From Chloroflexota bacterium (GTDB lineage Bacteria; Chloroflexota; Anaerolineae; Anaerolineales; Villigracilaceae), in contig JACRLB010000019.1 in the NCBI GenBank assembly GCA_016235445.1, positions 1 to 64,000 of the forward strand: DNA of 64,000 nt. Direction: 5' to 3'. Shown one piece after another: positions 130 to 57,267 of this stretch. Under the pieces are notes generated by a model. The model was not told where the DNA came from. It searched no databases and saw only the letters and a list, made by a program, of their open reading frames with translations. The translations under genes and the position numbers were made by a program. Each line of letters begins with the position of its first letter. The stretch's first letter is position 1.

Positions 130-432
130 TCTACTGATTATGAAGAAGGCGGATATTTATGGGTGCTCACCAGCCGCGATAGAACCTGGTGGAAAAACCT
201 GCAAGGCGGCGCAAGTGTTGACCTGCTGTTGAAGCGCAGGCTGGTAAAAGGTTTTGCCGAAACCGAGTTGGATGAAAATGCCGTTGAGCAATGCATGTAC
301 GAATTTCTTCGCCATGAACCACGCGCCGCGAAGCCAATGGGCATTCGTGTGGAAAATGAAAATCTGAATGCCAAAGATGTTGCGCGAGTTGCAAAAGATA
401 GGTTGTTCGTGAAAATCAAGATATCGGGATAA
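130..432 (+). pseudogene. Remnant of a nitroreductase/deazaflavin-type oxidoreductase, C-terminal part
   Basis: The open frame after the TGA at 127-129 encodes a segment with TSRDRTWWKNLQGG and a long Lys/Arg-rich stretch. It resembles the C-terminal half of the split-barrel, deazaflavin(F420)-dependent nitroreductase family, where a 'SRDRxWWRNLRGG' block precedes the last strands. The same frame continues upstream to the window edge but is broken by that TGA, and no ATG with a ribosome-binding site is present; the only candidate start is a GTG at 163. I read it as a truncated or decayed gene. The family assignment rests on motif memory only. It could instead be a short intact gene of unknown function starting at 163. 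Confidence 0.35.
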
Positions 433-440
433 TTCAAGAG

Positions 441-538
441 CGTGGAATATTTTTTCGGCACTCCGCGTGGGACAAATCTCTGATTTGCCTCGCAAGTCAA
501 AGACTTGCGCCACATTTCCGAAACTTTAGTCCGCACCC
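441..538 (+). repeat. Palindromic intergenic repeat, family A (copy 1)
   Basis: This roughly 98-bp element starts GTGGAATATTTTTTCGGCAC and ends TTTCCGAAACTTTAGTCCGC. It contains two inner stem-loops, CAAATCTCTGATTTG and CAAGTCAAAGACTTG. Copies occur at 9414-9495, 21161-21238, 56639-56738 and 56901-57000, the last two inverted. It lies just after the decayed reductase gene. Confidence 0.8.
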
Positions 539-684: not shown

Positions 685-1965
685 ATGAGTAAAATGATTA
701 AACTTTCAACGCCCTTTCGGTTTGTTGCAATCATCATTATAGGACTGTTCGTTTCTGAAGTGATTGTGATGGGGGTGATAGGCACAATGGATACCATGCC
801 GTATCTGCGGCTCTCGATCATCGATGCAACTTTGATGATATTGTTCGCCACGCCCTTTTTGTATTTTTTTTCCCTGCGCCCTCTGCTTAAAGTGATTGCG
901 GAACGCGAAGCCGAAATTACCCAGCGCAGGCAAACGGAAAGCCAGCTTCGCATCCAAACCAAGGCGCTGGAGACGGCGGCGAATGGGGTCATTGTCACTG
1001 ACAGGGATGGGAATATCCTTTGGGCAAACCGCGCCTTTGCAAACCTGACTGGCTATTCCATTCCAGAGGTGCTGGGTAAATCGCCTAAATTATTAAACTC
1101 AGGGGTGCATGGACCGGAGTTTTACAAGAGTTTATGGGAAACCATACTTTCGGGAAATGTATGGCATGGCGAGGTGACGAATCGCCGCAAAGACCGCACG
1201 CTTTACATCGATGAGCAAACCATTACGCCGGTAATTAATTCGGACGGTGAAATCGAAAATTTCATCGCGATTCAACAGGATATCACCGAACGAAAACGCG
1301 CGGAAGCCGCCGGCAGGGAACATGACCGCAAGACAAAACTGCTTACCCAGACCATCCACACCATGCAGTTGGATATCGCGCGCGACCTGCATGATACAGT
1401 GGGGCAGAACATTAGTTATCTGCGTATGAAACTCGAATACATGCTGGATAAGGAGCTTTTCACAGATTCGGAGATTGCCCAGGAAATCAAGCGCATGAGC
1501 CAGGTTGCAAATGAATCCTTCGATCTGATGCGCGGCACGCTTGCCGTGCTTCAATCGGATGACTCCTCCGATCTTTCCGATTTGTTTGCCCGGTACGTAA
1601 GCCGAATTGAGGAGCGCTCGACCTTCAAGGTTGATTTTTCCAGCAGGGGCGAACCCCGGCCTCTTTCGCCGAAACGTATGCGCCAGTTGTTTTACGTATA
1701 CCGGGAAATTTTGAACAATATCGAAAAACACGCCCGCGCCAGCAAGGTATCCATCGAGATTGTCTGGAGTGAGGATTGCCTGGCTCTTATTGTTTTCGAC
1801 GATGGCTGTGGGTTTGATATGATAAACTTCGTTCAGCCAGGCGGTCACTATGGATTAAGATTCATGAGAGAGAGAATCGAAATGCTGGATGGAACGCTGG
1901 CCATCACTTCCGCGCCAGATTCAGGAACGAATATTCTGATCAATCTGCCGATTGGCAGTCAATAA
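685..1965 (+). CDS. PAS-domain sensor histidine kinase (NarX/DesK-type, HisKA_3)
   Basis: A 426-aa membrane-anchored sensor kinase. Two hydrophobic segments lie in the first 65 residues with almost no periplasmic domain between them. A PAS domain follows at about 95-205 ('AANGVIVTDRDGNILWAN', ending 'QQDITERKRAE'), then a coiled linker and a HisKA_3 dimerisation segment with the phospho-acceptor His236 in 'ARDLHDTVGQ'. The C-terminal HATPase_c domain has an N-box-like 'ILNNIEKHARAS' and 'FDDGCGFD'. This class phosphorylates NarL/LuxR-type regulators, and one starts 34 bp downstream. The signal is probably sensed by the cytoplasmic PAS domain, since no extracellular sensor is visible; the ligand is unknown. 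The ATG at 685 has only a weak ribosome-binding site. Confidence 0.9.
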   Translation: MSKMIKLSTPFRFVAIIIIGLFVSEVIVMGVIGTMDTMPYLRLSIIDATLMILFATPFLYFFSLRPLLKVIAEREAEITQRRQTESQLRIQTKALETAANGVIVTDRDGNILWANRAFANLTGYSIPEVLGKSPKLLNSGVHGPEFYKSLWETILSGNVWHGEVTNRRKDRTLYIDEQTITPVINSDGEIENFIAIQQDITERKRAEAAGREHDRKTKLLTQTIHTMQLDIARDLHDTVGQNISYLRMKLEYMLDKELFTDSEIAQEIKRMSQVANESFDLMRGTLAVLQSDDSSDLSDLFARYVSRIEERSTFKVDFSSRGEPRPLSPKRMRQLFYVYREILNNIEKHARASKVSIEIVWSEDCLALIVFDDGCGFDMINFVQPGGHYGLRFMRERIEMLDGTLAITSAPDSGTNILINLPIGSQ

Positions 1966-1999
1966 CCCTGGGTTATTTATAAATTTAATATGGTGAACA

Positions 2000-2638
2000 A
2001 TGAAGATGTTGATAGTAGATGATCATGTTCTTTTTCGCGAAGGTCTGGCATCGATCATTCGCGCAGAACCCGATATGGAGATCGCAGGCCTGGCCGGCAC
2101 GGTTCGAGACGCTGTCGAGATGGCTGGCAGGATCAAGCCGGACATTATCCTGATGGATTTTACATTGCCGGATGGCACCGGGGCAGATGCGACACGCCTG
2201 ATCCTTGGCGCGCATTCAATTTGCAATATCATATTTCTGACCATGACCGATGAGGATGAAAACCTGTTCGATGCGATTCGCAGTGGGGCCAAGGGATATT
2301 TACTTAAAGACATGCATCCGTCCAAACTTGTCTCTGCCATACGGTCGGTGTACAAAGGGGAAAGCGCCCTTTCGCGGGCAATGACCCTGCGCGTAATGAA
2401 GGAACTGTCCCAGACGAAGAAAGCCGATATGGCCCAGGCATCCCCCACGCTGACGCGCAGGGAATTGGATGTGCTTCAGTCTATTGCGACAGGGAAGACC
2501 AACCAGGAAATCGGGAAGGAACTCTTCCTTTCCGAAAACACGGTCAAATTCCATGTGCATTCCATCCTTGAAAAACTGCGTCTTAAAGATCGCAGGGAGG
2601 CTGTCACCTTTGCGAGAGAGCGCGGCCTGGTTAAATAG
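2000..2638 (+). CDS. NarL/LuxR-family response regulator
   Basis: A 212-aa regulator. The N-terminal receiver begins 'MKMLIVDDHVLFREGL', giving the acidic pocket, with the phospho-acceptor Asp53 in 'ILMDFTLPDG' and a conserved Lys in 'GYLLKDM'. The C-terminal LuxR-type helix-turn-helix lies at about 148-205 ('LTRRELDVLQSIATGKTNQE', 'SENTVKFHVHSILEKL'). It is the evident partner of the kinase immediately upstream. Targets cannot be read from the sequence. The downstream degenerate receiver and multicopper oxidase genes are candidates by proximity only, because a strong terminator separates them from this gene. Confidence 0.93.
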   Translation: MKMLIVDDHVLFREGLASIIRAEPDMEIAGLAGTVRDAVEMAGRIKPDIILMDFTLPDGTGADATRLILGAHSICNIIFLTMTDEDENLFDAIRSGAKGYLLKDMHPSKLVSAIRSVYKGESALSRAMTLRVMKELSQTKKADMAQASPTLTRRELDVLQSIATGKTNQEIGKELFLSENTVKFHVHSILEKLRLKDRREAVTFARERGLVK

Positions 2639-2669
2639 GATTAACCAGGGGATTAATTATTTTCCACAA

Positions 2670-2698
2670 AAGACCACCCGAAAAGGGTGGTCTTTTTT
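2670..2698 (+). terminator. Rho-independent terminator after the response regulator
   Basis: AGACCACCC, a short loop, then GGGTGGTCT followed directly by a run of T. Confidence 0.9.
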
Positions 2699-2826
2699 AT
2701 CCCCAATGTTTAGGTGAGGTGGATGTACGGATGCCCGGCGCTGAGATACCCTTGTCGCATTCAGCCGGGTTTGGCTGTGAATACTATTTGTATAAAACAG
2801 GAAGCTTGGTTAATGTGGAAGACTTG

Positions 2827-3195
2827 ATGATTTCTGTTAAGCCAAAAGTTGTGGTCATTTCAAGGCGCGAAAGCCTGCTTGGATGCGCGGTGGAATACCT
2901 TACAACCGACGAGAAAGAATGGATGGTTCTCCTGGTATCTGAATGCCACGCCATTCCAGACGTATCTCGAAAAGTGGCAGAGGCGAACCCCAATATCGTT
3001 ATTCTCTCCCGCAAGGAGCGCGGATATGACGAGCGCTTGTCGGCGCAATTGTTGCAGGATTGCCCGGAGTTGAACAAGGTCATTCTTGTAAGCCTGAGCG
3101 AAAATTTTATGGAAGTCTATGGCAGACGGCGGATCCAAGTCAAAAGTGTGGAAGACATATATGCAGTGGTAGACGATCAATTTTCTATGGCATGA
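2827..3195 (+). CDS. Receiver-like protein without phospho-acceptor (pseudo-receiver)
   Basis: A 122-aa protein from the ATG at 2827, which has GGAAG five bases upstream. The frame stays open to a GTG at 2719, but that extension looks non-conserved. The spacing of strands and helices follows a CheY-like fold: 'KVVVISRRESLLGCAVEYL' matches the usual 'VLIVDDHPLVREGL' region and 'EANPNIVILSRKERG' matches the 'xPDVVLLDxxMPG' region. The acidic pocket is replaced by Ser/Arg and the phospho-acceptor Asp by Ser. It is a stand-alone domain with no output domain. It may be a decoy or phosphorylation-independent partner of the neighbouring two-component pair or a regulator of the oxidase downstream. 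Function not known; fold assignment is inference. Confidence 0.55.
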   Translation: MISVKPKVVVISRRESLLGCAVEYLTTDEKEWMVLLVSECHAIPDVSRKVAEANPNIVILSRKERGYDERLSAQLLQDCPELNKVILVSLSENFMEVYGRRRIQVKSVEDIYAVVDDQFSMA

Positions 3196-18719: not shown

Positions 18720-19547
18720 TCAGGCTGTTAACAGCGTGCCCGCATTTTCTCCGCGCAATGCCCGCTCCAAAAACCCTCTTTCCTCTGCCGAAAAAATTTG
18801 CACGGTCAGCCCTTTTGTTCTTTGGATTAATGCAAGCATTTCCTCCACTTTGGCTTTCATCCCGCCAGTGACATCGGTACTCGTCGAACCGCCGATGCCT
18901 GCCCGCATCTTTTCATAATCTGACAATTGAATCTGTTTCACCAGCCTCGTCCTCGCTGGGAAATCCTCCCACACCCCGGCTTCCATTCCAGCCAGCAAAA
19001 TGCGTGTGGGGGAGAACTGCTCAACCAAAAATGTAAAGACATCCTCCGTCGAAAGTATGGTTCCGCCGAGTTTCTCGTCGAAGGTCACATCGCCATACAC
19101 CACCGGCAGTAAGTGGACATCCAACGCCTTGCGTATAGTCAGTATATTGTGATGGGTGACTTTGCGGCTATTTGAAACCATCGAAGAGGATGGCGGAAAT
19201 GAGATGGCAGGCACGCCCGCATTGAACAGCGCCTCCATCACATGGCGGTTCAACTCTGCCGCCTGAAAACGGACTTCGGCAAAACCTTTCCAATAATTCC
19301 CCTCTCCCTCAGGGAGAGGGGTTAGGGGTGAGGGAAACCCATCCCGCGTGCCATACTTCTTCGCGGCCACATGTCCGAACGAGCCAGAGCCATGTCCTAG
19401 AATCAGGAGCAGGTCCGGGCGCGAGTCGAGAGCCGTTTTTATTTCCAGAGCCAGTTCATTTAATTTATCGAGTCTTGGGGTGTAGGGAATATCCTTGTCT
19501 GTGATGAGCGATCCGCCCAGTTTGAGGAGAACGATGTCTTTTTTCAT
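18720..19547 (-). CDS. ipk: Isopentenyl phosphate kinase
   Basis: A 275-aa amino-acid-kinase-fold protein that phosphorylates isopentenyl phosphate to isopentenyl diphosphate in the alternative (decarboxylate-first) mevalonate pathway. Motifs are the phosphate loop 'LLKLGGSLITDK', 'LGHGSGSFGHVAAKKYG' with His59 at the position of the catalytic His that distinguishes this family, and 'GGSTSTDVTGGMKAKVEEML' near the end. Residues 71-83 (FPSPLTPLPEGEG) are encoded by a palindromic genomic repeat lying in frame in a loop right after the 'KKYG' helix, so the protein seems to tolerate an acquired insertion. No other mevalonate gene is in the window. Confidence 0.88.
   Translation of the reverse strand: MKKDIVLLKLGGSLITDKDIPYTPRLDKLNELALEIKTALDSRPDLLLILGHGSGSFGHVAAKKYGTRDGFPSPLTPLPEGEGNYWKGFAEVRFQAAELNRHVMEALFNAGVPAISFPPSSSMVSNSRKVTHHNILTIRKALDVHLLPVVYGDVTFDEKLGGTILSTEDVFTFLVEQFSPTRILLAGMEAGVWEDFPARTRLVKQIQLSDYEKMRAGIGGSTSTDVTGGMKAKVEEMLALIQRTKGLTVQIFSAEERGFLERALRGENAGTLLTA
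19299..19334. repeat. Coding palindromic repeat, family D, inside isopentenyl phosphate kinase
   Basis: CCCCTCTCCCTCAGGGAGAG followed by GGGTTAGGGGTGAGGG: a 10-bp perfect hairpin plus a G-rich flank. Almost the same sequence lies inside murE (50098-50132), and related versions lie in non-coding DNA at 27283-27357 and 56802-56863. Here it is translated in frame. Confidence 0.85.
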
Positions 19548-27209: not shown

Positions 27210-27282
27210 TTTTCAAGTAAATAATAGAGAAGGCTGATTGGATTAAATCCTTTCAGCCTTTTCTTTGTGTAATAAGGAAAAT

Positions 27283-27357
27283 CCCCCTCACCCTAGCCCT
27301 CTCCCGAAGGGAGAGGGGACTCCCTTCCCCTTCGGGGGAAGGGTAGGGGATGAGGGA
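27283..27357. repeat. Palindromic repeat, family D, between nuoA and nuoH
   Basis: CCCCCTCACCCTAGCCCTCT, CCCGAAGGGAGAGGGGAC, then a second hairpin CCCTTCCCCTTCGGGGGAAG and GGGTAGGGGATGAGGG. These are two nested hairpins of the same family that is translated inside ipk and murE. The frame of nuoH is open through it, but the real nuoH start lies after it. Confidence 0.8.
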
Positions 27358-27372
27358 GAAACAGGAGTGATT

Positions 27373-40752: not shown

Positions 40753-40814
40753 TAACGCCCTCTCCCATTGGGAGAGGAGGCCAACGCGCTTATCACTTTC
40801 ATATTGGAGATGCA

Positions 40815-48928: not shown

Positions 48929-50572
48929 ATGTCAAACAATAACACAAAATCACTCCAGCAAATTTTTTCAGAAATCCCTTTCCCTCTTCCATCCAAACTC
49001 CCCGACGCGCAGATTTCAGGCATTGCCATCAACAGCCGCGCTGTGAAGCCTGGCTATCTTTTTGTCGCCATGCAAGGCGGCACAATGGATGGGCATGATT
49101 TCATCCAAAATGCCATTGATAACGGAGCCGCTGTGGTTGTGGGGGATCGGGATTTGGATGGACTCTCCGTCCCATACATTCGACTCGAAAACCCGCGTCA
49201 AGCCCTGACCTGGCTGGCTGGTTCGTTTTACAACTGGCCTGCCCGCAAGCTGACGGTGATCGGCGTAACAGGCACCGATGGCAAAACTACGACCAGCAAT
49301 TTGATCTATAAAATCCTCATTGCGGCGGGCATCAAAGCGGGCATGATCTCGACCGTGAACGCCGTCATTGGCGATGAAGTGCTGGATACGGGATTCCATG
49401 TCACCACGCCCGATGCGCATGATGTGCAAAATTACCTGGCAAAGATGGTGGATGCAGGCCTGACCCATGTTGTGCTCGAGACCACGTCTCATGGCTGGGC
49501 GCAGTACCGTGTGGATGCCTGTGAGTTTGATATTGGCGTGGTCACTAATATTACACACGAGCATATGGACCAGCATGGCAGTTATGAAAACTATCGCGCC
49601 GCCAAGGCCAGGTTATTTTCAAGCCTTGAATGGACGCGCGCAAAACCGCACCCACAGGGGGCTGTGCCGGGGAACCCGCGTTTGGGGGTTATCAATCGCG
49701 ATGACGTTAAGTCATTTTCCTTTCTCAACGACCATATCAAAGTAAACAGGATCAACTATGGGCTGGGGGAGGAGGCGGATGTTCGGGCGGAGGATATCGA
49801 ATATAGCTCGACGGGAATCAAATTTACTGTCGTCTCAAAAGATTTTCGTGTAGGCGCTTCCAGTAACCTGGTTGGAGCGTATAACGTCTCGAACTGCCTA
49901 GCCGCGTTGACAGCGACAATCTACGGCTTGGGGATCGATCCGCAGGTTGCCGCGCAGGGCATCGCGGCGCTGGAGGGCATTCCTGGGCGGATGGAAAAAA
50001 TTTCGATGGGACAGAATTTCATCGCAATCGTGGATTTTGCCCATACGCCCAATGCCTTGAAAGTGGCCTTGGAAGCTGGAAGAACTCTCACCACTAACCC
50101 CTCTCCCTCAGGGAGAGGGGCAGGGGTGAGGGGCAGAGTCATTTCAGTTTTTGGATCAGCAGGCCTGAGGGATAAAGAGAAGCGGCGCATGATGGCAGAG
50201 ACATCCGCAGAGTTGGCGGACCTCACCGTGTTGACGGCTGAGGATCCTCGCACTGAGTCGCTGGTGGGAATTCTCGAGGAAATGGCGGCAGGCGCAAGGT
50301 CCAGAGGAGGACGCGAAGGGGAGACGTTCTGGCGGGTTGCGGATCGAGGCGAAGCCATCAAATTTGCACTGCGTCTTGCGCGCAAGGGTGATGTGGTGCT
50401 TTCGTGTGGAAAGGGACATGAACAGTCGATGTGTTTTGGCAGGACTGAATATCTTTGGGATGACCGCACCGCAATGAAAGCCGCGCTCGCGGAATTTTTA
50501 GGAATGGATGGGCCGAAGATGCCTTATTTACCATCACAAAATAAGATGGAAGAGGAATGGTTGGGAGAATAA
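48929..50572 (+). CDS. murE: UDP-N-acetylmuramyl-tripeptide synthetase (MurE)
   Basis: A 547-aa Mur ligase that adds the third amino acid to UDP-MurNAc-dipeptide using ATP. 'VTGTDGKTTTSNLIYKIL' is the P-loop, 'LETTSHGWAQYRVDACEFDI' and 'NITHEHMDQHGSYENYRAAK' are central-domain blocks (with the carbamylated-Lys site), and the C-terminal specificity motif reads 'AEDPRTES' rather than the DNPR of diaminopimelate enzymes, which may indicate ornithine or lysine. Residues about 390-402 (NPSPSGRGAGVRG) come from a palindromic repeat lying in frame just before the C-terminal domain strand 'VISVFGSAG'. Confidence 0.9.
   Translation: MSNNNTKSLQQIFSEIPFPLPSKLPDAQISGIAINSRAVKPGYLFVAMQGGTMDGHDFIQNAIDNGAAVVVGDRDLDGLSVPYIRLENPRQALTWLAGSFYNWPARKLTVIGVTGTDGKTTTSNLIYKILIAAGIKAGMISTVNAVIGDEVLDTGFHVTTPDAHDVQNYLAKMVDAGLTHVVLETTSHGWAQYRVDACEFDIGVVTNITHEHMDQHGSYENYRAAKARLFSSLEWTRAKPHPQGAVPGNPRLGVINRDDVKSFSFLNDHIKVNRINYGLGEEADVRAEDIEYSSTGIKFTVVSKDFRVGASSNLVGAYNVSNCLAALTATIYGLGIDPQVAAQGIAALEGIPGRMEKISMGQNFIAIVDFAHTPNALKVALEAGRTLTTNPSPSGRGAGVRGRVISVFGSAGLRDKEKRRMMAETSAELADLTVLTAEDPRTESLVGILEEMAAGARSRGGREGETFWRVADRGEAIKFALRLARKGDVVLSCGKGHEQSMCFGRTEYLWDDRTAMKAALAEFLGMDGPKMPYLPSQNKMEEEWLGE
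50098..50132. repeat. Coding palindromic repeat, family D, inside murE
   Basis: CCCCTCTCCCTCAGGGAGAG followed by GGGCAGGGGTGAGGG. Apart from a one-base length difference and one substitution it equals the repeat inside ipk (19299-19334). Because murE is on the opposite strand relative to ipk, the repeat is translated in the opposite orientation. Confidence 0.85.
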
Positions 50573-55872: not shown

Positions 55873-56123
55873 TTTGTCTCCTATTTTTACTCTGGAACTC
55901 ATGAGCTTGCTCATGAACACGCGAAGCGTGTAACCGCCGCGTTCCAGATTTTCCCGCTTTTGGTCAGGGACTGAAGAGTGGGAACAACCACGTTGTTCGC
56001 GCTATTCAATTCCTGACGGCGGGTTTCTGATTTCACTCTCTCCCCGCGGAACGTGTGCCCGTACGGGTAGAGGTTGGGGTGAGGGTTGTCCCCTCATTTC
56101 CTTTGTAACTAAAACTTTTAAAA

Positions 56124-56155
56124 AGACCCTAAAAGTCTCATGACCTTTAGGGTCT
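56124..56155. repeat. Palindromic repeat, family B, between rpsO and pnp
   Basis: AGACCCTAAAAGTCTC and ATGACCTTTAGGGTCT. It sits just after rpsO on the minus strand. The rest of the 55873-56162 gap holds GAGCTTGCTCATGA hairpins and a degenerate family D copy near 56040-56090; no gene is seen. Confidence 0.7.
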
Positions 56156-56638: not shown

Positions 56639-56738
56639 GTGTGGACTAAAGTTTCGGAAATGTGGCGCAAGTCTCCGACTTGCGAGGCAAATCAGAGATT
56701 TGCCCTACAGGGTGCGCCGAAAAAATAGTCCACACCCC
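56639..56738 (-). repeat. Palindromic intergenic repeat, family A (copy 4, inverted)
   Basis: GTGTGGACTAAAGTTTCGG, CAAGTCTCCGACTTG, CAAATCAGAGATTTG, GCGCCGAAAAAATAGTCCAC. It is the full-length form with both inner stems and is inverted relative to copies 1 and 2. With copy 5, a family D palindrome and a pair of GCATGCAAAG inverted repeats it fills the 56436-57078 gap, in which I see no gene. Confidence 0.85.
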
Positions 56739-56801
56739 ACGCGCACTGGTGTGCATGCAAAGATGTCAGGGGAGGTAGATTGTTCGCTGGGCTGTGCAAA
56801 C

Positions 56802-56863
56802 CCCTCACCTTGCCCTCTACCCTTACGGGCACACGTCCCTCAGGGAGAGGGCAGGGTGAGGGA
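56802..56863. repeat. Palindromic repeat, family D, between two family A copies
   Basis: CCCCTCACCTTGCCCTCTAC to CAGGGAGAGGGCAGGGTGAG. Non-coding relative of the repeat translated in ipk and murE. Confidence 0.75.
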
Positions 56864-56900
56864 AAAGGGGAATGCTGACAACCTTTGCATGCAGGCGCGG

Positions 56901-57000
56901 GTGTGGACTATTTTTTCGGAAATGTGGCGCAAGTCTCCGACTTGCGAGGCAAATCAGAGATTTGCCCTACAGGGTGCGCCGAAAAAATACTCCACGCCCC
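56901..57000 (-). repeat. Palindromic intergenic repeat, family A (copy 5, inverted)
   Basis: GTGTGGACTATTTTTTCGGA, CAAGTCTCCGACTTG, CAAATCAGAGATTTG, GCGCCGAAAAAATACTCCAC. It is almost identical to copy 4, only 160 bp away and in the same orientation. Confidence 0.85.
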
Positions 57001-57078
57001 ACGCGCACTGCTTGCATGTCAATTCTGATTATGATAAACTCTCGATTAATAAATCCACTTTGAAAGGAGGTACTTGCA

Positions 57079-57141
57079 ATGATGAAGATCAACCAAAACT
57101 CATTTTTGTTTCGTGTGCCTCCGAGCGGGTTTGGTTTGTAA
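57079..57141 (+). CDS. 20-codon micro-ORF with strong ribosome-binding site
   Basis: The peptide MMKINQNSFLFRVPPSGFGL is preceded by AAAGGAGG seven bases upstream of the first ATG, one of the best Shine-Dalgarno sites in the window. An intrinsic terminator starts 21 bp after its stop codon. This ribosome-binding-site/micro-ORF/terminator layout is that of a translated small gene or of an attenuator leader. No amino-acid run typical of biosynthetic attenuators is present. The peptide is not recognised. The downstream ABC genes lie behind the terminator. Confidence 0.5.
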   Translation: MMKINQNSFLFRVPPSGFGL

Positions 57142-57162
57142 TTTAATTTACATGCCACCACG

Positions 57163-57205: not shown

Positions 57206-57267
57206 AGACCCTAAAGGTTTTCTCGCCCGGCACTATGCAAACTCATGAATATAAACCTTTAGGGTCT
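57206..57267. repeat. Palindromic repeat, family B, upstream of the ABC genes
   Basis: AGACCCTAAAGGTTT at the left and AAACCTTTAGGGTCT at the right, perfect 15-bp arms with a 32-nt spacer. Confidence 0.8.

Follow-up and report, generated by a model that had tools for sequence, protein, structure and literature searches.

An in-frame BoxC/PIT/TM-type repeat in isopentenyl phosphate kinase of an Anaerolineales bacterium, at a site where related genomes are empty or carry other short repeats

A short palindromic repeat lies within the gene for a conserved enzyme, isopentenyl phosphate kinase (IPK), of a Chloroflexota bacterium of the order Anaerolineales, and is read in frame as part of it. What is this repeat, what do related bacteria carry at the same codon position, and how could such sequences come to reside in a conserved protein? 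We address these questions with a 64,000-nucleotide stretch of contig JACRLB010000019.1 (assembly GCA_016235445.1), here called the window, with the genome to which it belongs (G000), and with other genomes of the same genus, including its sister G055. The comparisons suggest that conserved proteins have a few tolerant spots where short repeats insert and where one repeat may take the place of another.

The repeat in IPK and its identity

The plus strand at window positions 19,299-19,334 reads CCCCTCTCCC-TCA-GGGAGAGGGG-TTA-GGGGTGAGGG, a total of 36 bp. A first-pass annotation of the window had described a hairpin-forming repeat read in frame inside IPK at this place, and both parts of that description hold: single-stranded DNA folding yields a perfect 10-bp hairpin from either strand (z -2.31 and -2.77), and the minus-strand reading supplies residues 71-83 of the product, FPSPLTPLPEGEG. 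The identity of the host ORF rests on the NCBIfam model NF040647 (177 bits; cut-off 120) and on a Pfam AA_kinase match over residues 5-253, and its best solved relative is 3k4o. The insert follows directly upon a block whose His we take to be catalytic, and had been assigned to a loop; in agreement with this, a structural model (mean pLDDT 87.3) places it in a predicted low-confidence loop between helices 56-64 and 83-109, with a mean pLDDT of 57 over residues 71-80.

The same annotation knew of no such description for this repeat, but the repeat has been described before. Judged by its sequence, the 36-bp repeat is the known BoxC/PIT/TM intrastrand triplex motif (hereafter TM). Each of its three arms has a counterpart in the TMECO table of Holder et al. 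(2015; PMC4666352), for example no. 17, CCCTCTCCCTGAGGGAGAGGGTTAGGGTGAGGGG; the arm order is that of the TM consensus (C-rich, G-rich and a third, G-rich arm, with short loops); and the third arm in reverse equals the second at 9/10 places, compared by eye. In the account given in that paper, BoxC and PIT elements are earlier descriptions of the triplex motif, which occurs in >260 genomes; its E. coli K-12 copies are tied to genomic instability by a mechanism left open there, and no mobile genes are reported beside it. The elements described here resemble that motif in three-arm sequence, short loops, many copies per genome and wide bacterial spread. The main text of PMC4666352 contains no mention of chloroflex, in-frame, open reading frame or intragenic.

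Copies in the window and across the genome

The window holds further copies (Table 1). A near-copy in murE, reported by the first-pass annotation to run in the other coding orientation, does lie opposite to the IPK copy relative to its gene; two intergenic relatives that it had listed were likewise recovered, together with a degenerate third. No Rfam family matched in the window at gathering scores.

Table 1. Coordinates of the TM elements in the window and of two host genes
Feature	Position	Strand	Basis and remarks
Isopentenyl phosphate kinase (IPK) gene, element host, 275-aa ORF	18720..19547	-	NF040647, AA_kinase, 3k4o
TM/BoxC element, in frame in IPK (residues 71-83, FPSPLTPLPEGEG)	19299..19334	-	Sequence, fold, genome count; 32/50 genus homologues empty
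REPIN-like TM doublet (class I), intergenic, upstream of nuoH	27285..27356	+	Fold z -4.17 for 27280-27360
murE	48929..50572	+	Three Mur ligase Pfam domains; C domain (353-496) spans insert
Near-symmetric TM element, in frame in murE (TLTTNPSPSGRGAGVRG)	50085..50132	+	9/48 genus genomes with the stretch occupied; sister G055 empty
Degenerate TM relative, intergenic	about 56033..56085	-	Window scan; far end set by eye
TM subtype with extended apical arm, intergenic	56802..56862	-	Window scan

Inspection of the window showed other repetitive sequences as well. Two inverted repeats of the type designated family B below (GACCCTAAAGG...CTTTAGGGTC) occupy intergenic positions near TM copies, at 57,207-57,266 and about 56,123-56,154. 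Spurious-looking ORFs at 138-536 (minus strand) and 56,700-57,146 (plus strand) have the peptide SEMWRKSxTCEANQRF..PKKYST in common, and a longer dispersed repeat seems to be present at both places. A lone hairpin at 40,758-40,780, CCCTCTCCC ATT GGGAGAGG, follows a gene end and could be either half a TM or a terminator.

Interrogation of the entire 4.13-Mb genome with the pattern CCCTCACCC-N2-8-CCCTCTCCC returned 87 matches, and none with the reversed control; the repeat is therefore not a product of chance. These matches represent 83 places, since four symmetric elements were matched on both strands, and 81 of the places were examined (L083 and L094, which comprise the same 80 bp as L028, were left out). 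Three types can be told apart among the copies: simple elements, doublets that resemble REPINs, and longer elements. A genome-wide count of in-frame copies, proposed in the first-pass annotation, gave 21 of the 81 examined, distributed over 20 coding ORFs; gene boundaries came solely from our own codon-usage script and ORF lists, and three elements were left aside, two because they lie at ORF edges and one because its overlap with an ORF is partial. Any Pfam match was counted as support, and 19 of the 20 ORFs have one, the range of the match spanning the insert in 10/20 by our reading. The hosts are IPK, murE, an AddB-like protein, CinA, two amidohydrolase-family proteins, MoeA, a CO dehydrogenase/acetyl-CoA synthase subunit, a methyltransferase, a molybdopterin-dehydrogenase fusion, a luciferase-like monooxygenase, an APH-type kinase, two ABC proteins, a DUF2298 protein, aconitase, valyl-tRNA synthetase (ValRS), a TrmA-family methyltransferase (with two TM copies), Cas4, and one protein that lacks a Pfam match. 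Location in genes depends on the type of element: as first classified, 21 of 32 simple TMs and 0 of 49 composite ones were in genes (Fisher 9e-12, the in-gene set being entered by hand), and counts corrected for the doublet L114 and the class I copy L120, both miscalled simple, are 20/30 versus 1/51. Of 301 Chloroflexota genomes that were sampled, 144 contain the TM pattern.

Residence within genes sets these copies apart from those of E. coli K-12, where the 23 copies are described as always intergenic (PMC4666352). It brings them closer to the Rickettsia palindromic elements (RPE), a likeness already drawn in the first-pass annotation and upheld by the in-frame insert, which is missing from most homologues, and by the proportion of copies found in ORFs. 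In both cases palindromic repeats stand in frame in unrelated conserved genes. As reviewed by Delihas (2007; PMC2229807), RPE measure 105-146 bp and occur in 19 ORFs, and the gmk product bearing an insert is active. Shorter RPE families exist, but the TM has 36 bp and resides in an unrelated phylum, in bacteria with several-megabase genomes rather than the small genomes of Rickettsia. RPE-4 and RPE-6 have been matched with short REPs (PMC3733652).

Occupants of the IPK site and of sites in four other genes

The IPK comparison included 45 named homologues and 57 genomes of the genus, 51 of which have an IPK match and 50 of which could be aligned at the site. Eighteen of these 50 are occupied and 32 are empty, and an archaeal and a Levybacteria homologue also lack the 13 residues, as anticipated for homologues by the first-pass annotation. 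The span from G70 to W86 holds six residues in all 32 empty alleles, 11 to 25 in the occupied ones and 15 in G000.

The occupants are not of one kind. Family A, the TM, accounts for five (G000, G011, G056, G006 and, in degenerate form, G047); family B (AGACCCTAAAGGTCT..AGACCTTTAGGGTCT) for four (G055, G015, G016, G051); family C (CTCCCCCCATTTT..AAAATGGGGGGAG) for three (G031, G053 and a variant in G052); family D for three (G026, G049 and a remnant in G018); family E for two (G033, G013); and an unclassified loop for the last (G030). Patterns for B, C, D and E, allowing 2, 0, 2 and 3 mismatches, respectively, were found in 15, 11, 29 and 10 of the 57 genomes, and in none with the reversed control of each. 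The IPK copy is the sole match in three of the B genomes and one of the C genomes, so that copies elsewhere are present in 12 and 10, respectively. Some family D matches may be due to chance or to conserved coding sequence (an identical two-mismatch match recurs in G004, G040 and G041), and family E is a repeat, yet forms no clean palindrome. By these same patterns the other IPK families are rare in G000 itself (B 1, C 0, D 1, E 0). In G042 the family D pattern matches 82 times; at least five of these matches lie no more than about 55 bases from the start of a contig, as would be expected of a longer, assembly-breaking repeat. The IPK of G001 (L181) bears a private insert with CTTCGACAGGCTCAGGG near its N-terminus, apparently a further repeat, and contains one internal TAA.

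Sister taxa can differ in occupant. G000 and G055, joined with a support of 99 in a four-gene tree built without the insert columns (82 once ValRS is added), carry families A and B, respectively. The multi-gene trees are quick trees; the IPK gene tree alone, being weakly supported, was set aside. Occupancy of the IPK site requires 10 changes on the tree that includes ValRS, against a mean of 14.3 after shuffling (3/300 shuffles as low), while family identity among occupied alleles also requires 10, against a shuffled mean of 10.5 (46% as low). Occupancy is clustered on the tree, and the identity of the repeat is not. Flanking residues segregate with the insert irrespective of family: Y85, the Tyr preceding the invariant Trp, is present in 18/18 occupied and 0/32 empty alleles, and K87 in 14/18 and 0/32. 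The Tyr accompanies the insert in nine of nine independent pairs (p 0.004).

Four further genes were compared at their TM sites. All five, IPK included, had been picked for the presence of a TM in G000, so the share of palindromes among the inserts is biased upward. At the ValRS site, 30 genomes of the 54 with a match comprise six with TMs (in two stem phases), nine with other short hairpin inserts and 15 empty. The nine, whose stems measure 4-16 bp, are defined as hairpins at this site, not as dispersed families; those of G038, G046 and G047 are GTAG/GTAA-tagged, a label given by eye, and an exact copy of the G015 hairpin core is present at an aconitase-region locus of G031 (L306). Neither clustering test was significant for ValRS (12% and 15%) with the 27 genomes in the tree, three of the 30 being absent from it. 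Among 49 genomes with the corresponding stretch of aconitase, two carry a TM, two a C-like repeat (lacking one C of the C pattern) and one another insert; here again sisters, G007 and G042 (support 100), have different occupants. A second aconitase site, at alignment column about 240, holds different hairpins in L267 (G034), L274 (G015) and L315 (G052), and none in G000.

The remaining sites are occupied by TM variants only, namely the murE site and two sites in the TrmA-family gene (8/50 and 6/50 occupied at sites 1 and 2, respectively). A second repeat, around TGAGCCTGTCGAAG / TGAGCTTGTCGAAG, lies within the site 2 TM of G026 and G007. At site 1 a stem change (CCCTTCTCCC/GGGAGAAGGG in G048 and G044) is accompanied, by eye, by a matching one in the third arm (GGGGATGAGGG, GGAGATGAGGG). 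Visual inspection further indicated that at most of these sites the insert stands in place of host codons instead of simply separating them; it revealed no target-site duplication, codon replacement leaving the exact ends ambiguous.

Different REPs have been described at about the same recB site in two Xanthomonas species (PMC3733652; BMC Genomics 2013 14:522), the one precedent for such sharing that we found in the open-access literature. That paper also reports REPs within ORFs of several bacteria and GTAG REPs in Chloroflexi, among other groups. The present repeats are like the GTAG/CGTC REPs in being short, in entering coding regions and in being present as different kinds at a shared site; they differ in that the TM bears neither tag and in that unrelated repeats share sites genus-wide, with five families in IPK. 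The TM motif itself, in-frame palindromes (in Rickettsia) and REPs within ORFs are thus already known; what seems new, within the open-access literature searched, is a coding TM and the occupancy of single sites by many families across a genus.

Accounts of how the sites are filled

The reading that we favor, at a probability of about 0.55, is that a long-loop IPK allele has had its contents overwritten in frame by dispersed repeats, with little effect on the enzyme. The TM is a short, gene-less dispersed repeat that can fold into a hairpin, to which a third strand could potentially add; simple TMs of this genus occur within genes as well as in the spaces between them, those copies surviving that keep the frame. 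The long-loop allele would have arisen first, its loop later being rewritten by other repeats, always in frame, and the inserted peptide would be approximately neutral. Turnover could proceed by template switching triggered by the hairpin or triplex, or by short-tract recombination. One long-loop allele with turnover of content fits the data because occupancy is clustered on the tree, family is not, and Y85 and K87 accompany the insert; for IPK we infer overwriting rather than separate insertions. Against overwriting, TMs at a given site share their orientation and nearly always their phase. Since the same enzyme exists in close relatives with the site empty, filled by a TM or filled by something else, both the neutrality of such inserts and the movement of short palindromes are directly testable. 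The findings also tie a long-known, unexplained DNA motif to protein evolution in conserved enzymes.

The uniformity of the TMs at each site leads to a second account, which we regard as possible at somewhat under even odds: each family would have given rise to an insert on one or a few occasions, and homologous recombination of short tracts would have carried it from species to species, so that insertions and replacements could both be infrequent. The patchy presence of TMs may then reflect one insertion spread by allele exchange. Orientation and arm phase agree at IPK (5/5), aconitase (2/2), TrmA site 2 (6/6) and site 1 (7/8); in murE they agree for the eight script-matched TMs, that of G024 having the same phase and that of G015 being too degenerate, and a similar murE allele is common to G008, G015, G026 and G049. 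The flanking residues common to occupied IPK alleles are also consistent with exchange. However, the G000 codons beside the TrmA site 2 insert resemble, by eye, those of its sister G055 and not those of the occupied G042, and unrelated repeats at one site would still call for separate origins.

A third account, compatible with short-tract exchange and held more tentatively, is that the families inserted independently, each by its own route, at the few positions that tolerate them, with Y85 and K87 arising later as compensation. The predicted loop location of the IPK insert favors it, as do the uniformly short empty orthologues and the near absence of composite, longer TMs from genes; but independent insertion sits poorly with a Tyr found in every occupied IPK allele whatever the family, and in no empty one, and with occupancy that clusters on the tree when family does not.

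We consider it doubtful that the occupied sites act as exchange sockets, in which unrelated hairpin or triplex repeats swap at one codon position through structure-driven template switching. If this were true, conserved enzymes would have a fast-changing loop written by whichever selfish palindrome had landed last.

Transposition of the REP/RAYT type, in which one of the genome's Y1 transposases would mobilize the TM as a REP, appears improbable. The REP-associated tyrosine transposase family does have three matching proteins here, two of them above the cut-off, and class I copies are REPIN-like doublets; yet the TM lacks the GTAG/CGTC tag, host codons are replaced and not simply separated, and within about 1.5 kb of the six Y1_Tnp loci there is no TM, a lone CCCTCACCC being present at one (L034). 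That the insert is an assembly artefact or a stray low-complexity stretch is scarcely credible: most of the compared genomes are metagenome-assembled, but occupied sites recur in many separate assemblies, G001 alone among the 51 genus IPK matches has an internal stop, and the reversed pattern is absent from the genome.

Among the Y1-domain proteins, a 552-aa product encoded at 1444-3102 (minus strand) of L033 has a C-terminal Y1/IS200-like domain over the Pfam cut-off, an NCBIfam score of 50.8 bits against a cut-off of 55, and an N-terminal part that is receiver-like by our reading.
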